Shown: piece by piece, positions 50,851-56,269 of the stretch | How positions within the stretch are numbered: the stretch's first letter is position 1 | Layout: every line of letters starts with the position of its first letter | Assembly: GCF_001578945.1 (NCBI RefSeq) | Contig: NZ_KQ969550.1 | Coordinates: forward strand, 203,423-259,945 | Source of the DNA: Streptococcus oralis | GTDB lineage: Bacteria; Bacillota; Bacilli; Lactobacillales; Streptococcaceae | Direction of reading: 5' to 3' | Length of the DNA: 56,523 nucleotides | Translations under genes and position numbers: made by a program | Notes under the pieces: model-generated | Told to the model about the DNA's origin: nothing | What the model saw: only the letters and a program-made list of their open reading frames with translations | The model's database searches: none

Positions 50851-53262
50851 CTAACAATTTTCTTTAACAGCTGTTTGACCTGCAATACGTCCAAAAGTAA
50901 AGATATCCGTAAGTGAATTTCCTCCTAGACGGTTACCTGCATGGAGTCCACCTGCGACTTCTCCGGCAGCATACAAACCAGGGATAATCTGACCTTTTTC
51001 ATTCAAAACGTGTGTTGAAGTATCAATCTTGAGTCCACCCATTGTATGGTGAACGGCTGGTTTTCTCGGTGTTGCATAAAATGGTGCAACCTCACACTTG
51101 AGATCGAAACTACCCTTGTTGAATTCAGGGTCAAATCCTGCATCAACATAAGAATTGTACTTCTTGATTGTATCTGCTAACACCTGTGGATCCATATCAA
51201 TCTGAATCGCCAACTCTTCTATCGTATCTGCACGATAGAGAGTGCCTGCTTTGACTTGGGCATCGATTTTTTCTTGGCTAGTGTTGTAGGCTGTTGCCTT
51301 GATACGTTCATCTGCGATTAGATAGAACAAGCCTCCATTATCAATCGCCGCTTGAGATAGCTTGTCACGGCTACCGTACTCATCTACAAAGCGCTTCCCT
51401 TCAGTATTTACCATGATGAAGTTTGCTGGAGGAACTTGAAGCCCTGAGAAAAGGGCTCCTGTCACTGGATCGGATACTGGCATCATTTGACTAAAGCCCA
51501 TACCCACTAGATCTGCACCTACACTTTGACCTAAAAGAATACCATCCCCTGTTACAGCTGGTGTATTAGATGTAGCAATATCATCTGCAATTTCAGTCCA
51601 GTAGGTATTGTATTTTTGTAGCATCTTTGTATTGGCACCAAATCCTCCAGAAGCTAGAACAACGGCATCTGCATTGACAATGATGGTTTGACCGTTTCGA
51701 CCTTCTGCTCTGACACCCTTGACAGCCCCGTCTTTTACAAGCAATTCTTTAACTGGAGAATCTGTCAAAATCTTGCCACCATGCTCTAGAACATATTTTT
51801 GTAGGACGGATATAAAGGCATACCCCATTGGTTGAACCGGCTTATGGCCACGACGCCAAAGGGCTCCAACTGGCATTGTCACTTCACTACGAACAAATTC
51901 AACGCCGATGTCTTCCAACCAACGAACAGACTCTAGGGCCCGTTCGGTTAAAACAGATACTAAATCGTATTGGCCATGAATTTCATTTCCTTGTAAATCT
52001 TTTCGTTTCCCACCGATATAGGTTTGGATACGGTAAAGTAAGGTAGAGTCAAACAAATAGCTCGGATCCTGCAAATACTGCTCAACCTCAACTTTCAAGG
52101 CTCTAAAGTCCTCTAGATATTCTGGATCAATCGTTGATTCATCTGTCGCAATCAATTCTTGAAGCGTATGAGCCTCTCCTGGATTCGCTCCAAAGGTCTT
52201 TTGCCATGCTGGATCTGGTGCATTCATTGGACCACCTGCACGAACAGTATTTCCTCCAATTGCAGGAAATTTCTCTACCACAATTGGTTTCTTACCAGCT
52301 TGTAAGACTGCAGCCGCTGCAGCTAATCCAGCTCCTCCGCCTCCGACGATGACAACGTCTGCCTGATAGGTTTTATCTTCTTTATCTAGGGCAGATGGCG
52401 CTTTTGAACGCTTGCGTAAAACATCCGGATTTGCACCGGCTTGTTTGACTGCACGCGCAACTCCATCTAAAACACCATTTGAAGTCACAGAAGCTCCTGA
52501 CACCGCATCAACATTTAATGTTTGCCCCTCAATGATTTCTGCTGGAATACGAGTAAAGACAACATCTGCGATTCCTGAAGATTCTCCAGAAGAGTCAATC
52601 TCAATTTTTTCAATACGCTCTTCTGAAACCGTTACCTCCATCGGCAGTTTACCATTATGTCCCTCGGTTGTAACGTGATAAGTCCCCGGTTCAAACCGAA
52701 CTTCTTCAGGAAGGTTTAGTTGGTTTGCAACGGATACAAAGCGAAGGAAGCGATAAAAACAGCTATCTAGGAAATCAACGGTTCGCTCATCAATCAAATC
52801 TCCATTGTCATCAAACGCTCGATGCGCTCGACCAAGTAAAAACTCACTACCTGGCATAACTGTTGCATTTACCCCAGGAGCATCCAGAATCTGACGAAGA
52901 TGAAGTTGGGCACGTGAAGAACCTTGAATATCATAAGAAGCTCCGACAATCATTGTCGGCTTTCCGTCTAGTGGATGAATGTTAAAAGACAACCACTCGA
53001 GCAAGCTATTCAAACTTGATGGAATCGTATGATTGTGCTCGGGTGTTGAGATAATGACACCATCGGCTTCTGAAATAGCTTGATTAAACTTCTGAATAAT
53101 AGGTGTACCTGTTTGATCATCTGTTTCATTGAACATTGGTACATCTGTTATTTCTAAAATCTCAATATCCGCTTTCTGAGCAAAATGTCTTTTCATAAAT
53201 TGCAACAGGTTGCGATTATAGGATTTTTTTGCATTAGTCCCAACAATAGCTACTAATTTCAT
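50851..53262 (-). CDS. Three-domain NADH-dependent enoate/fumarate reductase-type flavoprotein
   Basis: This 803-residue cytoplasmic protein fuses three modules. Residues 1-180 are an NAD(P)H:FMN reductase flavodoxin fold ([23 protein letters not shown]). Residues 200-276 are an FMN-bind domain with DAVSGASVT, where T260 is the expected site for covalent FMN. Residues from 300 on are a flavocytochrome-c/fumarate-reductase FAD domain ([48 protein letters not shown]). NADH-dependent fumarate, cinnamate and acrylate reductases share this build. The acceptor here is unknown. Covalent FMN needs an ApbE transferase, which is not in the window. The start follows AAGGAGTAGAGTCA. Confidence 0.88.
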
Positions 53263-53287
53263 TGACTCTACTCCTTTCATTAATTCC

Positions 53288-53896
53288 CTATGCTTTCAAC
53301 CATTCTTCCCAGATGAATGATTTTTTTCGATTTGTATCTTCAGGTTTGACCAAAGCTTTTGTTAGTTCAACAAAATTTTGAAACTCTGAAAAATGTTCTT
53401 CTAGTTCTGCAACCTTTTCAGGATTGTTCAAATGACACTCATCATCTAGTACTTGCTCAGAATGACCTAGAAAGAACTCTGTACCAGGCATAACTCTCGC
53501 TTTAAGCTCTGGCGCATCTAAAATCTGACGCAAATGCGCTTGCGCTCTAGATGTTCCTAGCAAACCGAGAGAAGCTCCGACAATCATCGTTGGTTTGTTA
53601 ACCAAGGCACGACTGGTATAAGCAATCCACTCCAAAGCAGAGGCCAAAGGTGCTGGTATCGTGTGATCGTATTCAGGTGTTGAAATAATCACACCATCAG
53701 CGGCAAGAATTTTTTCTGAAAAAGCTTGAACTTCAGCTGGCGCTTGCTTGTCCTCAGGTTCGTTAAATGCTGGCAATTGTTTGATTTCCAATACCTCAAT
53801 GTCAGCTTTATCTGAAAAATGTTTTTGCATAAATTTCAAGAGTTTGCGATTGGTTGAGCGATCCGAATTGGTTCCAACGATAGCAACTAGTTTCAT
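53288..53896 (-). CDS. NADPH-dependent FMN reductase family protein
   Basis: This 202-residue flavodoxin-fold protein is closely related to the first 180 residues of the downstream flavoprotein. Both begin [10 protein letters not shown] and share STPE-(H/Y)-(N/D)HTIP and the segment [13 protein letters not shown]. It probably passes electrons from NAD(P)H to FMN. Its stop is 25 bases before the next start, so the pair is co-transcribed. A stand-alone copy of a domain that is also fused suggests gene duplication followed by fusion, or a helper that supplies reduced flavin. Confidence 0.88.
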
Positions 53897-53930
53897 CTTG
53901 GTACCCCTTTCATTTATTTAATCTACTTTC

Positions 53931-53958
53931 ATTATACTACTTTAGAAAATCTTGTAAA
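53931..53958 (-). promoter_or_regulatory. Promoter of the FMN reductase - flavoprotein pair
   Basis: On the minus strand TTTACA (53953-53958) and TATAAT (53931-53936) are 16 bases apart, 34 bases before the start codon. Confidence 0.68.
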
Positions 53959-54049
53959 TCCTTGATAATAAAAGACCGTGTTATTCTATCAGATTATCGT
54001 ACTTTAGTATAAGTTCGTGAAAAAATTAACAAAATATCTTCATAAACTA

Positions 54050-54078
54050 TTGACCATCTTACTTAACTATGATATAGT
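54050..54078 (+). promoter_or_regulatory. Promoter of the MFS carboxylate transporter
   Basis: TTGACC (54050-54055) and TATAGT (54073-54078) are 17 bases apart. The divergent FMN reductase promoter is about 90 bases away, so one regulator bound between them could control both. Confidence 0.7.
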
Positions 54079-54115
54079 CTTGGTGAAAAAATATACATTT
54101 ACGGAGGATGTTTTT

Positions 54116-55315
54116 ATGAAAGAGACATTCAATCGTTGGCGGATTTTAGTCGCGTCTACGGCCATTCTTCTTTGTACAGGTGCCGTCTATTCCTTTTCTG
54201 TTTTTGCCGGACCACTTAGCAGTTCAACAGGCTGGTCCATGTCAGATATTATGTTAGCATTTGCTATCAACTCTGCAATAGGCCCTATCCCCATGATTCT
54301 CGGAGGTTATTTAGTTGACAAAGGTTATGTAAAATGGACCATCGCCCTCGGCGCTCTCCTATTTGCTAGTGGATTTTACTTAACCGGCTATGTCAATTCA
54401 CCAGCCATGCTTTATTTGACCTATGGATTAATGGCTGGACTTGGTCAAGGTTTTGCCTATTCAGGTGCCCTCTCCAATTCACTTCGCCTCTTCCCTGATA
54501 AACGTGGCTTAGCCTCTGGAATTCTGACAGGCGGAATGGGATTTGCCGCAGTCATCGCTTCTCCAGTCGCAAGCAATCTCATTCAACAACAAGATGCCTT
54601 CTTTGCTTTTCGTACAATTGGGCTAGTCTATATTGTTGTTATCATCTGTGCAATTTTCTTTATCAAGGCAGCTCCAAGCGGCTACCAACCAGCAGGCTGG
54701 AAAGCTCCAGTACAAACGAAGCAAGGACCTACTAATAAAACCTGGAAACAAATGCTACAAAGTCCTCTGTTTTACATTATCATTAGCATGTTCTTTGTTG
54801 GCGCCTTTTCTGGTTTGATGATTGCCTCTCAGGCATCACCAATCGGTCAATCAATGTTTGGACTCTCTGCAGGCGCTGCAGCTCTCTATGTCTCTCTTTA
54901 TTCAATCGCAAACTCTAGTGGTCGCTTTATCTGGGGGTCACTTTCTGATAAAATTGGCCGTTCAAAGACCTTATTGATTATCTATTCTGTCATTGTCCTA
55001 GCTTTATTCTCCCTAACTATCGTTCCGGGTCAATTCGGGTTTACCTTAGGAATTATAGGGCTTGGTATCTGCTTTGGTGGTGTTATGGGGGTCTTCCCAT
55101 CTATCGTCATGGAAAATTACGGTTCTGCAAATCAAGGGGTCAACTACGGTATCGTCTTCACTGGATATTCTTTAGCAGCATTTTTCGCTCCCAAAGTCGC
55201 TGTTCAAATGGCAATGGCTAATAATGGAAATTATAGTGTAGCTTTTTATGTTGCTATTGCTTTGGCCTTCATTGGACTTATGCTTACTATTTTTTATATG
55301 AAGAAGAAAGCTTAA
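54116..55315 (+). CDS. OFA-family MFS transporter (oxalate/formate antiporter type)
   Basis: This 399-residue permease has twelve predicted helices and the OFA-type N-terminus WRILVASTAILLCTGAVYSF-VFAGPL. The first-half loop LVDKGYVKW and the second-half WGSLSDKIGRSKTLL are MFS loop motifs. OFA members carry small carboxylates such as oxalate, formate, lactate or pyruvate. Given the divergent enoate-reductase-like genes, an unsaturated carboxylate is a reasonable guess. The start follows GGAGGATGTTTTT. An in-frame start at 54017 would put 33 hydrophilic residues in front and overlap the promoter. Confidence 0.88.
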   Translation: MKETFNRWRILVASTAILLCTGAVYSFSVFAGPLSSSTGWSMSDIMLAFAINSAIGPIPMILGGYLVDKGYVKWTIALGALLFASGFYLTGYVNSPAMLYLTYGLMAGLGQGFAYSGALSNSLRLFPDKRGLASGILTGGMGFAAVIASPVASNLIQQQDAFFAFRTIGLVYIVVIICAIFFIKAAPSGYQPAGWKAPVQTKQGPTNKTWKQMLQSPLFYIIISMFFVGAFSGLMIASQASPIGQSMFGLSAGAAALYVSLYSIANSSGRFIWGSLSDKIGRSKTLLIIYSVIVLALFSLTIVPGQFGFTLGIIGLGICFGGVMGVFPSIVMENYGSANQGVNYGIVFTGYSLAAFFAPKVAVQMAMANNGNYSVAFYVAIALAFIGLMLTIFYMKKKA

Positions 55316-55322
55316 AGCCCGA

Positions 55323-55349
55323 AAACTTCCTATATACGGAAGTTTTTTT
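55323..55349 (+). terminator. Terminator of the MFS gene
   Basis: AAACTTCC, loop TATATAC and GGAAGTTTTTTT form an eight-base stem with a T run, eight bases after the stop codon. An extended -10 box, TGGTATAAT (55352-55357), follows at once and should drive the AraC gene. Confidence 0.85.
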
Positions 55350-55390
55350 GGTATAATAAAAGTAGTAATAGTATATTGGGAGGATTTACC

Positions 55391-56269
55391 ATGGCAGACC
55401 GTTCACGTTTCTTACGAGATAACCCATCTGACTTCCCATATGATTTTGAAAAACAAATCTTATCCAAAACATCTCCTGACACAATCTATCATTGTCATCC
55501 CGAGCTAGAGGTTATTTATGTTACAAAGGGTTCTGCCATCGTTCATATCAACTCTGAACGCTTTGAAAGTCGCGAAGGGGATATTTTTCTTATTCAGCCA
55601 ACAGCCCTTCACACTATCTACTCTATCGAAGATCAAGAACAACTTTCTACCACCTTTCGTTTCCACCTAGATTGTCTTGGAAGAAATCAAATAGACAGCT
55701 TTAGTCAACGCTATATCCAACCCCTCCACTCTGGTCACTTTTGCCTCACTCCTCAAATATCACCAGGCGATAAGGCCTATGATCAAATTCAATCCTGCCT
55801 TCTTTCCCTCTTTTCTATCCTTGAAGAAAAAGGCATATACTACGATCTACTCATAAAATCTAAACTATACGAATTGCTTCATCTTCTCTTTAAGTATCGA
55901 TACGTCAATCGACACTATACAGATGATACCTACCAAAAATACCAAAAACTAAAAGAAGTGATTTGCTACCTTGAACAGCACTATGCAGAACCCGTTTATA
56001 TCGAGCAACTGGCTGCAACATTTGGATATAGTAAAAATCACTTTATGAGTATTTTCAAGCAACATACTGGAGCCAGTTGTATGGACTACTTGCTCCAGTT
56101 ACGTCTTGAGAAATCCTGTGAGAAACTCGTCCAAACCAACCTCAGCATTCAAGAAATTGCAAGCCAAGTCGGTTTCACCAACCTTTCAAACTTCAACCGT
56201 CAATTTAAACAACACTATCACTTAACACCTAGACAGTATCGAAACCAACAACTTAAAAAGAAAACATAA
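55391..56269 (+). CDS. AraC-family transcriptional regulator
   Basis: This 292-residue regulator has an N-terminal cupin-like ligand-sensing domain (HCHPELEVIYVTKGSAIVHI near 35-54, with RFESREGDIFLIQP). The C-terminal AraC/XylS domain has two helix-turn-helix units: YIEQLAATFGYSKNHFMSIFKQHTG and IQEIASQVGFTNLSNFNRQFKQH. ATG 55391 follows GGGAGGATTTACC. AraC proteins of this type usually activate nearby genes when a sugar or organic acid binds. The neighbours suggest control of the transporter and the flavoprotein operon, which is inference. Confidence 0.9.
   Translation: MADRSRFLRDNPSDFPYDFEKQILSKTSPDTIYHCHPELEVIYVTKGSAIVHINSERFESREGDIFLIQPTALHTIYSIEDQEQLSTTFRFHLDCLGRNQIDSFSQRYIQPLHSGHFCLTPQISPGDKAYDQIQSCLLSLFSILEEKGIYYDLLIKSKLYELLHLLFKYRYVNRHYTDDTYQKYQKLKEVICYLEQHYAEPVYIEQLAATFGYSKNHFMSIFKQHTGASCMDYLLQLRLEKSCEKLVQTNLSIQEIASQVGFTNLSNFNRQFKQHYHLTPRQYRNQQLKKKT

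Follow-up and report, generated by a model that had tools for sequence, protein, structure and literature searches.

Which compound would a Streptococcus reduce with a flavoprotein that carries a fumarate-reductase-type core and an NADH-side domain of its own, and that is encoded divergently from a carboxylate transporter? The question is raised by a four-gene locus in a stretch of 56,523 nucleotides from Streptococcus oralis (hereafter the window; assembly GCF_001578945.1, contig NZ_KQ969550.1, positions 203,423 to 259,945). A preliminary description had read the locus as a module for import of an unsaturated carboxylate and its reduction by an NADH-dependent enzyme with covalent flavin mononucleotide (FMN), serving as an internal electron sink. 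Our analysis indicates, with a probability of roughly 0.75, a streptococcal hcrAB module whose electron sink is a hydrophobic enoate with a single carboxylate, a hydroxycinnamate or cinnamate being the most likely. This reading is built on gene content, orthology, conserved residues, the sole FMN_bind protein found in the assembly and an operator-like site; all biochemical steps, covalent FMN and activity included, are proposed from these. The source assembly comprises 2.05 Mb in 139 contigs with a completeness of 86.6%. Individual loci are designated by L-numbers and genomes by G-numbers, G000 being the genome of the window itself.

Kinship of the flavoprotein pair to HcrAB

The open reading frames (ORFs) of all four genes are open where described. 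On the minus strand, the gene of an HcrA-like FMN_red partner (53288..53896, 202 aa; assigned from ORF, domain and neighbourhood) precedes that of an HcrB-like flavoprotein (50851..53262), a predicted NADH:enoate reductase of 803 aa. The plus strand carries the genes of an OFA/MCT-type MFS carboxylate transporter (54116..55315, ~399 aa) and an AraC-family regulator (55391..56269, ~292 aa). Within the listed 809-aa ORF of the flavoprotein, Pfam cut-offs were exceeded for FMN_red (residues 7-153), FMN_bind (207-279) and FAD_binding_2 (to 790). Converted to the 803-aa protein, the FMN_red domain (the NADH side) spans residues 1-147 (52822..53262) and the FMN_bind domain residues 201-273 (52444..52662), followed by the fumarate-reductase-type FAD core (50911..52368), all on the minus strand. 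For the other proteins, Pfam gave FMN_red (the 202-aa partner), MFS_1 (transporter), and AraC_binding with HTH_18 (regulator). The flavoprotein scored 352 bits with the flavocytochrome c model TIGR01813 (cut-off 285), and no signal peptide was seen by eye at its N-terminus. The divergent arrangement, the three-domain flavoprotein with its own NADH-side domain and the missing signal peptide had already been part of the preliminary description and are borne out by the ORFs, the domain searches and inspection.

Judged by sequence, the two minus-strand genes encode HcrA and HcrB, known from lactic acid bacteria as the hydroxycinnamate reductase; the preliminary description had not recognised this system. 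Kinship to Lactiplantibacillus plantarum WCFS1 was judged by its published gene lengths and through Lactiplantibacillus relatives. Full-length HcrB relatives with 67-69% identity were found in 14 of the 21 Lactiplantibacillus genomes searched, and six of those loci were examined. With the window protein, HcrB of each of two loci, L202 and L203, shows 68% identity across residues 6-808. L202 encodes a divergent LysR of 315 aa, an FMN_red protein of 204 aa, HcrB with 822 aa from the first start (812 aa from the start chosen for alignment) and an ORF of 186 aa, which matches the lengths published for hcrR (315), hcrA (204), hcrB (812) and hcrC (186) of WCFS1 (PMC11126511, Table 2); locus tags of strain SN13T give the gene order R, A, B, C (PMC11126511). 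Because of this identity and the matching gene lengths, the window gene is regarded as an hcrB orthologue. L203 has the same layout, except that its FMN_red protein measures 210 aa when counted from the first start. In L204 and L205, HcrB (830 aa, likewise from the first start) is followed by a 202-aa ORF; in L206 this place is taken by an OFA-length ORF (409 aa), and L207 has no comparable ORF on that strand.

The window pair thus shares with L. plantarum HcrAB an FMN_red partner next to an FMN_red/FMN_bind/FAD flavoprotein in the same order, as well as the substrate-pocket residues, with identical pocket motifs in L202. In contrast, L. plantarum-type loci carry the LysR gene hcrR and the 186-aa hcrC, while the window has an AraC gene, a divergent OFA-type transporter, a Rex-like site and no hcrC. 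The enzyme is of a kind already known, and what is new is its setting with transport and control of its own. L. plantarum HcrB is reported to require NADH and FMN, and HcrA, inactive alone, has been proposed to stabilise HcrB (PMC10295242). No hydroxycinnamate reductase of Streptococcus was named in the titles and abstract starts that searches of open PubMed Central papers returned.

Substrate pocket, flavinylation and transporter

An AlphaFold2 model of HcrB (51 sequences; pLDDT 88.6, pTM 0.74) had its best match among solved structures in the urocanate reductase UrdA (6t86; E 4.5e-43, TM 0.91 by target). The proton donor, Arg411 in UrdA and Arg402 in fumarate reductase, aligns with HcrB Arg632, and the carboxylate ligands His520/His504 and Arg560/Arg544 (UrdA/Shewanella fumarate reductase) align with His738 and Arg778. 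The roles of these residues are documented, and the exchange Arg411Ala abolishes activity of UrdA (PMC10882135, PMC7921117). Loss of the catalytic Arg, with Pro in place of Arg402, was considered and ruled out, as counting along UrdA (offset 128) pairs Arg411 with Arg632 of GSRDKLS. With UrdA and the flavocytochrome c3 (Fcc3) of Shewanella, HcrB shares its fold and FAD core as well as the carboxylate ligands and the catalytic Arg. It differs from both in its NADH-side FMN_red domain, in the signal peptide, of which none was seen, and at the far end of the substrate. There, in the tail pocket, Met594 occupies the position of Fcc3 His365 and UrdA Tyr373, and LQVPP (with Gln609-Val-Pro611-Pro612) replaces the stretch with Fcc3 Thr377-Glu378-Arg381 and UrdA Asp388-Arg390 (Asp-Arg-Phe). 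HcrB accordingly lacks the second-carboxylate and proton-relay set of Fcc3 (His365, Thr377/Glu378, Arg381) as well as the UrdA pair Tyr373 and Asp388, in whose places Met594 and Gln609 are found.

The alignment comprised the window protein and 43 relatives (62-89% identity), including L202; Met593, Met594, Pro611, Pro612, Arg632, His738 and Arg778 are invariant in all 44 sequences. In more distant cores from Vibrio and Limosilactobacillus fermentum, Leu replaces Met593, while Met594 is kept and the Pro-Pro stretch reads LIVPP or LQTPP. The UrdA-like outgroups L120 (Streptococcus) and L143 (Lactiplantibacillus) keep Tyr and Asp, and their pocket is unlike that of the HcrB set. Since the contacts to a second carboxylate or an imidazole are replaced by Met and Pro-Pro, a hydrophobic enoate is favoured. 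The pocket, as read from the sequence alignment, argues for a substrate of the hydroxycinnamate/cinnamate type and against fumarate or urocanate. From the substrates listed in the preliminary description, we therefore retain the cinnamate type, extended to hydroxycinnamates, as the favoured one and disfavour fumarate and urocanate. The L120 protein (L120:3377-5209) is an UrdA-like lipoprotein of 610 aa with FMN_bind and FAD domains, encoded in another Streptococcus genome next to PhoU-like and two-component genes (names by eye).

The FMN_bind domain contains the motif DAVSGASVT, as described before. According to the published ApbE rule, D-x-x-[ST]-G-A-[ST], with Thr preferred and Ser accepted at the last position (PMC12052999), the predicted FMN acceptor is Ser258 of DAVSGAS (residues 252-258; 52489..52509, minus strand). 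D252, S255, G256 and A257 are invariant (44/44), and S258 is present in at least 90% of the aligned sequences. One ApbE and one FMN_bind protein, HcrB, were found in the assembly of the window, whose incompleteness leaves room for more. This ApbE has 320 aa and looks cytosolic, as neither signal peptide nor lipobox was seen by eye. HcrB hence has the features of an ApbE-flavinylated protein, namely the motif inside an FMN_bind domain and ApbE in the same compartment. Among 284 Streptococcus genomes, ApbE occurs in 276 and FMN_bind in 121. None of the eight genomes without ApbE has FMN_bind, therefore 155 have ApbE without a recognised FMN_bind protein. Long FMN_bind proteins of ~970-1010 aa (frames of 969-1011 aa; G085:C2, G033:C1, G017:C1) were also observed in several streptococci.

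The presence of ApbE without FMN_bind is probably explained, as far as sequences tell, by a neighbouring protein with FMN_red and PAS_10 domains and motifs in its tail. In the genome of the window (L118:1911-4762, G000:C3), the genes of ApbE, an FMN_red protein (201 aa) and an FMN_red + PAS_10 protein (415 aa) are consecutive. The latter has no FMN_bind domain and carries two DATSGAS motifs in a Gly/His/Asp-rich tail. ApbE-linked tails of this kind had one to four D-x-x-[ST]-G-A-[ST] motifs in 62/62 proteins picked by script, one per locus (55 loci from Streptococcus, with the own genome twice, and 7 from Lactiplantibacillus; 30 are best matches, leaning to near relatives). Flavinylated C-terminal tails of Lactococcus FMN_red proteins have been published (PMC11334425), and we dropped the notion that the tail of the 415-aa protein is novel.

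The transporter scored 415 with NF049980, the SfMCT L-lactate MFS transporter family (cut-off 320), a name that reflects the annotation of its members. The oxalate/formate antiporter models TIGR00890 (237, cut-off 375) and TIGR04259 (183, cut-off 335) indicate relatedness below their cut-offs. The protein shares the MFS family with the OxlT antiporter and the SfMCT lactate transporter (E 1e-42 and 8e-45) and keeps the substrate Arg; the second charged residue of OxlT, Lys355, is replaced by Tyr384. Arg303, at the position of the OxlT substrate Arg, and Tyr384 are each conserved in 47/47 sequences (the window and 46 loci), which fits a monocarboxylate. From its linkage to hcrB, the OFA-type protein probably imports the substrate and/or exports the product. 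The word "transporter" is absent from the main text of a review on lactobacilli (PMC10295242).

Gene neighbourhood, relatives and divergent promoters

At least 51 of the 284 Streptococcus genomes contain a near full-length HcrB relative of 76% or more identity without internal stop. Gene neighbourhoods were counted at 80 named loci, which were selected by exact peptides of the window protein and are hence biased to near relatives; the counts are raw output of an ORF and cluster script, with contig ends uncorrected and the HcrB frame of L105 lost. HcrA is encoded directly upstream in all 26 Streptococcus loci. Given these intact relatives and this constant neighbour, hcrB is no chance ORF. A divergent OFA gene was present in 17 of the 26 loci, LysR and ApbE in none, and an AraC of the window type in 13, with a fourteenth (L052) detected via tblastn only. 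The 54 non-streptococcal loci have HcrA directly upstream in 50 cases, LysR in 46, ApbE in 30 and OFA directly downstream in 29. As OFA is divergent in Streptococcus and directly downstream elsewhere, the transporter is tied to HcrB in two gene orders, and this linkage spans Streptococcus, Enterococcus, Vagococcus, Gilliamella and lactobacilli.

Among the matches listed, five further Streptococcus genomes have one stop within the aligned stretch. In three of these copies, matched by coordinates (L050, L054, L059), the frame is open at 807 aa, placing the stop in the extension upstream and thereby supporting a later HcrB start. HcrB probably starts at the second ATG (53262), preceded by AAAGGAG as ribosome-binding site, and not at ATG 53280 of the listed ORF; in many named streptococcal hcrB loci, the first-start ORF already has 803-804 aa. 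Likewise, the transporter probably starts at ATG 54116, preceded by GGAGG, instead of GTG 54017, and AraC at ATG 55391 instead of TTG 55376. Decay was also evident among the matches listed: the copy in G052 has five stops, and that in G277 matches residues 4-721 only. G238 has a full-length HcrB relative at 54%, and only pieces were listed for G043, G035, G080, G004, G045, G280, G056 and the incomplete G218. HcrB proteins with 96-97% identity occur in named relatives classified under S. infantis, S. oralis, S. pseudopneumoniae and unnamed species.

In the phylogenetic tree, the ten streptococcal HcrB proteins form one clade (100/100), and the single protein from Gilliamella (Pseudomonadota) groups, weakly, with Enterococcaceae (89/69). 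Nine loci of bee-gut Gilliamella (L064, L066, L067, L070, L071, L082, L090, L108, L116) have the order ApbE-LysR-HcrA-HcrB-OFA at ~73% HcrB identity, OFA being present in pieces only in L071. The Gilliamella hcr cluster was probably acquired from Gram-positive bacteria.

More distant systems share parts of the enzyme. A protein encoded on a plasmid of the gammaproteobacterium Vibrio sp. THAF190c (L227:2888-6928) has the FMN_bind/FAD core (56% identity over query residues 179-804) with WRRAHKP and VPP motifs, and ApbE is encoded directly downstream. It differs by its length of 1004 aa, another N-terminal part, annotation as NADH-dependent flavin oxidoreductase and Leu at the position of Met593 (FIQLMPV). 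From this protein, the NADH-side part of HcrB-type enzymes looks exchangeable. Acrylate reductases of similar build have reportedly been studied in Vibrio, as has cinnamate reduction. The 617-aa protein of L. fermentum (L228) is 60% identical over query residues 182-808, with a divergent LysR gene and WRRGHKP and PP motifs, but is too short for the FMN_red domain, and a pattern search for D-x-x-[ST]-G-A-[ST] found no match in it. A homologue of HcrB from L. fermentum, named hcrF and 63% identical, has been described (PMC11126511). The feruloyl-CoA reductase FarA/FarB of Weissella cibaria likewise serves redox balance with a hydroxycinnamate accepting the electrons, but by a CoA-thioester route, and its authors report no similarity to Hcr proteins (PMC13101492). 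Two Lactiplantibacillus loci (L137:37-3357 and L136:1447-4784) encode HcrB-like FMN_bind + FAD cores, 55-57% identical and without FMN_red domain. The L137 core adjoins a CoA-transferase family III gene (Pfam), and L136 has a partner of the same length; these reductases perhaps act after or on CoA esters.

The intergenic region between the divergent units comprises 221 bases. A sigma-70 promoter predicted for hcrAB (53931..53958, minus strand) has TTTACA and TATAAT as -35 and -10 boxes with a 16-base spacer, as read from the sequence and the intergenic alignment, and that predicted for the transporter gene (54050..54078, plus strand) has TTGACC and TATAGT with a 17-base spacer. Between the two lie a block conserved in the alignment, GTGTTATTCTATCAGATTATCGTACTTTAGTA (53978..54009, no strand assigned), as a candidate AraC operator, and the Rex-operator-like site TCGTGAAAAAATTAACAA (54015..54032, plus strand). 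This site differs at one position from the Rex pattern TTGTGAAWWWWTTMACAA, which was relaxed (M for C) after the site had been seen. Allowing up to two mismatches, the pattern matched 14 places of the genome (21 strand hits), compared to 4 hits for the reversed control. One place has no mismatch; four places have a single mismatch and tie for second best, the window site among them. Of these four, one lies just before rex, and two fall within ORFs, of which one looks glycosyltransferase-like by eye and the other has 106 aa. An aldehyde-dehydrogenase-type gene, taken for adhE, follows the mismatch-free place and two others. The remaining places include sites before pgk, before a gapN-like gene (by eye) and at genes without evident link. 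In order-1 random versions of the intergenic region, a site this good occurred in 1/5000 (0.0002). Of 30 different intergenic sequences, 17 share the identical core GTGAAAAAATTAACAA, and each of these 17 adjoins an HcrB of at least 96% identity. An operator like TTGTGAAWWWWTTMACAA together with rex in the genome is what a Rex-regulon member would have, and the divergent promoter carries a probable redox-sensing switch (Rex), a new observation. Rex control of hcr is unmentioned in the parts of the L. plantarum literature covered here. The aldehyde-dehydrogenase-type gene under the three Rex-like sites (L213:1-1479, G000:C6) is split into two frames, one of 316 aa, and is either a broken gene or an assembly error.

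A stretch resembling a catabolite-responsive element (CRE), TGTAAACG, overlaps the hcrA -35 box in several non-mitis loci (by eye; L027, L029, L030, L035, L050, L058), and the window lineage has TGTAAATC in its place (by eye). The CRE pattern with one mismatch gave 7 hits in the window compared to 3.86 expected, a number reached in 11/100 shuffles. The match at 53899-53912 is in the hcrA leader and not at the -35 box, and CRE control of the window hcrA was given no weight.

Proposed role and alternatives

In the model we propose, hydride from NADH would enter the FMN_red domain at the N-terminus of HcrB, with HcrA helping or stabilising HcrB as suggested by L. plantarum. Electrons would pass to the FMN bound to Ser258 by cytosolic ApbE and on to FAD in the fumarate-reductase-type core. 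FAD would then reduce the double bond of p-coumarate, caffeate, ferulate or cinnamate to yield the corresponding propionate, with Arg632 as proton donor, His738 and Arg778 holding the carboxylate, and Met594 and the Pro611-Pro612 turn leaving space for the ring. The divergent OFA-type transporter would bring the acid in and/or the reduced product out. AraC probably senses the acid, as its linkage suggests, and Rex probably responds to the NADH/NAD+ ratio. Lactic acid bacteria are documented to use hydroxycinnamates as electron acceptors (PMC13101492). The class assigned in the preliminary description, an NADH-dependent enoate reductase with covalent FMN, a carboxylate transporter and an internal electron sink, is thus supported by orthology to HcrAB, the catalytic residues, the cytosolic-looking ApbE and the Rex-like operator.

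Several points weigh against this model. L. plantarum HcrB is reported to have low, oxygen-sensitive activity in vitro, induction and reduction are not always coupled, and a benefit under oxygen was judged unlikely (PMC10295242). The window locus has AraC where L. plantarum has the LysR regulator HcrR, and L. plantarum-type loci have the 186-aa gene in the place of OFA, which is not universal elsewhere either (17/26 Streptococcus loci, 29/54 others). The transporter passes the cut-off of a family named for L-lactate. As to Rex, the pattern was adjusted with the window site in view, and the plain consensus TTGTGAAWWWWTTCACAA gives that site two mismatches; it is the sole window hit with up to three mismatches, where 0.83 are expected and 59/100 shuffles have at least one. 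Two of the four one-mismatch places are inside ORFs without evident redox role, which implies some background in the pattern. The site is located upstream of the transporter -35 box without overlapping it, and in the other streptococci, the non-mitis ones included, the best Rex match is found elsewhere with 1-4 mismatches, except for one close relative that keeps the same site at two mismatches.

Other activities or roles would fit part of the data. The enzyme might instead act on a small, non-aromatic enoate (acrylate, crotonate or the like) taken up by a short-chain monocarboxylate carrier. The transporter residues Arg303 and Tyr384 suit any monocarboxylate, its best named family is that for lactate, and the reported Vibrio acrylate reductases are of similar build, but the orthology to HcrB, characterised on hydroxycinnamates (PMC10295242), and the shared pocket motif render this unlikely. 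A soluble NADH:fumarate (or urocanate) reductase, as suggested by UrdA and Fcc3 being the nearest solved folds and by the flavocytochrome c family score, appears extremely improbable with Met594 and LQVPP in the place of the far-end residues, and with a separate UrdA-like protein keeping Tyr and Asp in another Streptococcus genome (L120). We also regard it as very unlikely that HcrAB is mainly an NADH oxidase or flavin reductase forming hydrogen peroxide, with enoate reduction as a secondary activity: the two FMN_red units and the disturbance of HcrB electron transfer ascribed to oxygen (PMC10295242) would agree with such a role, whereas the pocket residues are invariant in 44/44 sequences and a carboxylate transporter is linked in 46/80 named loci.

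A different question is whether the same activity was selected for detoxification of antimicrobial phenolic acids instead of redox balance, which is possible, if doubtful, and does not exclude hydroxycinnamate reduction as such. Phenolic acids are antimicrobial and met by several bacterial countermeasures (PMC10295242), and the adjacent AraC ligand-binding regulator fits substrate sensing; the Rex-like operator and the published use of hydroxycinnamates as electron acceptors (PMC13101492) speak for redox balance. A more far-reaching picture, which we consider rather unlikely to hold as a whole, is that oral mitis-group commensals perform a Rex-gated, respiration-like process with hydroxycinnamates. 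The OFA protein would exchange enoate for phenylpropanoate as OxlT does oxalate for formate, and HcrAB would reoxidise NADH, freeing pyruvate for acetate and ATP. The genome's other FMN_red pair, linked to ApbE and flavinylated in its tail, and HcrAB would then represent two uses of the same modular NADH-FMN_red heterodimer, with one cytosolic ApbE serving both.

Hydroxycinnamate reduction by this hcrAB module is of interest for its link to Rex, for the candidate carrier and for the host group, common mouth commensals. If the reading is correct, HcrAB would be under direct redox control by Rex, and the OFA-type transporter supplies a concrete candidate for the carrier. Common oral streptococci would hydrogenate dietary plant acids and balance NADH with them, and a connection of coffee- or plant-derived acids with the acid production of mouth bacteria would thereby become testable.

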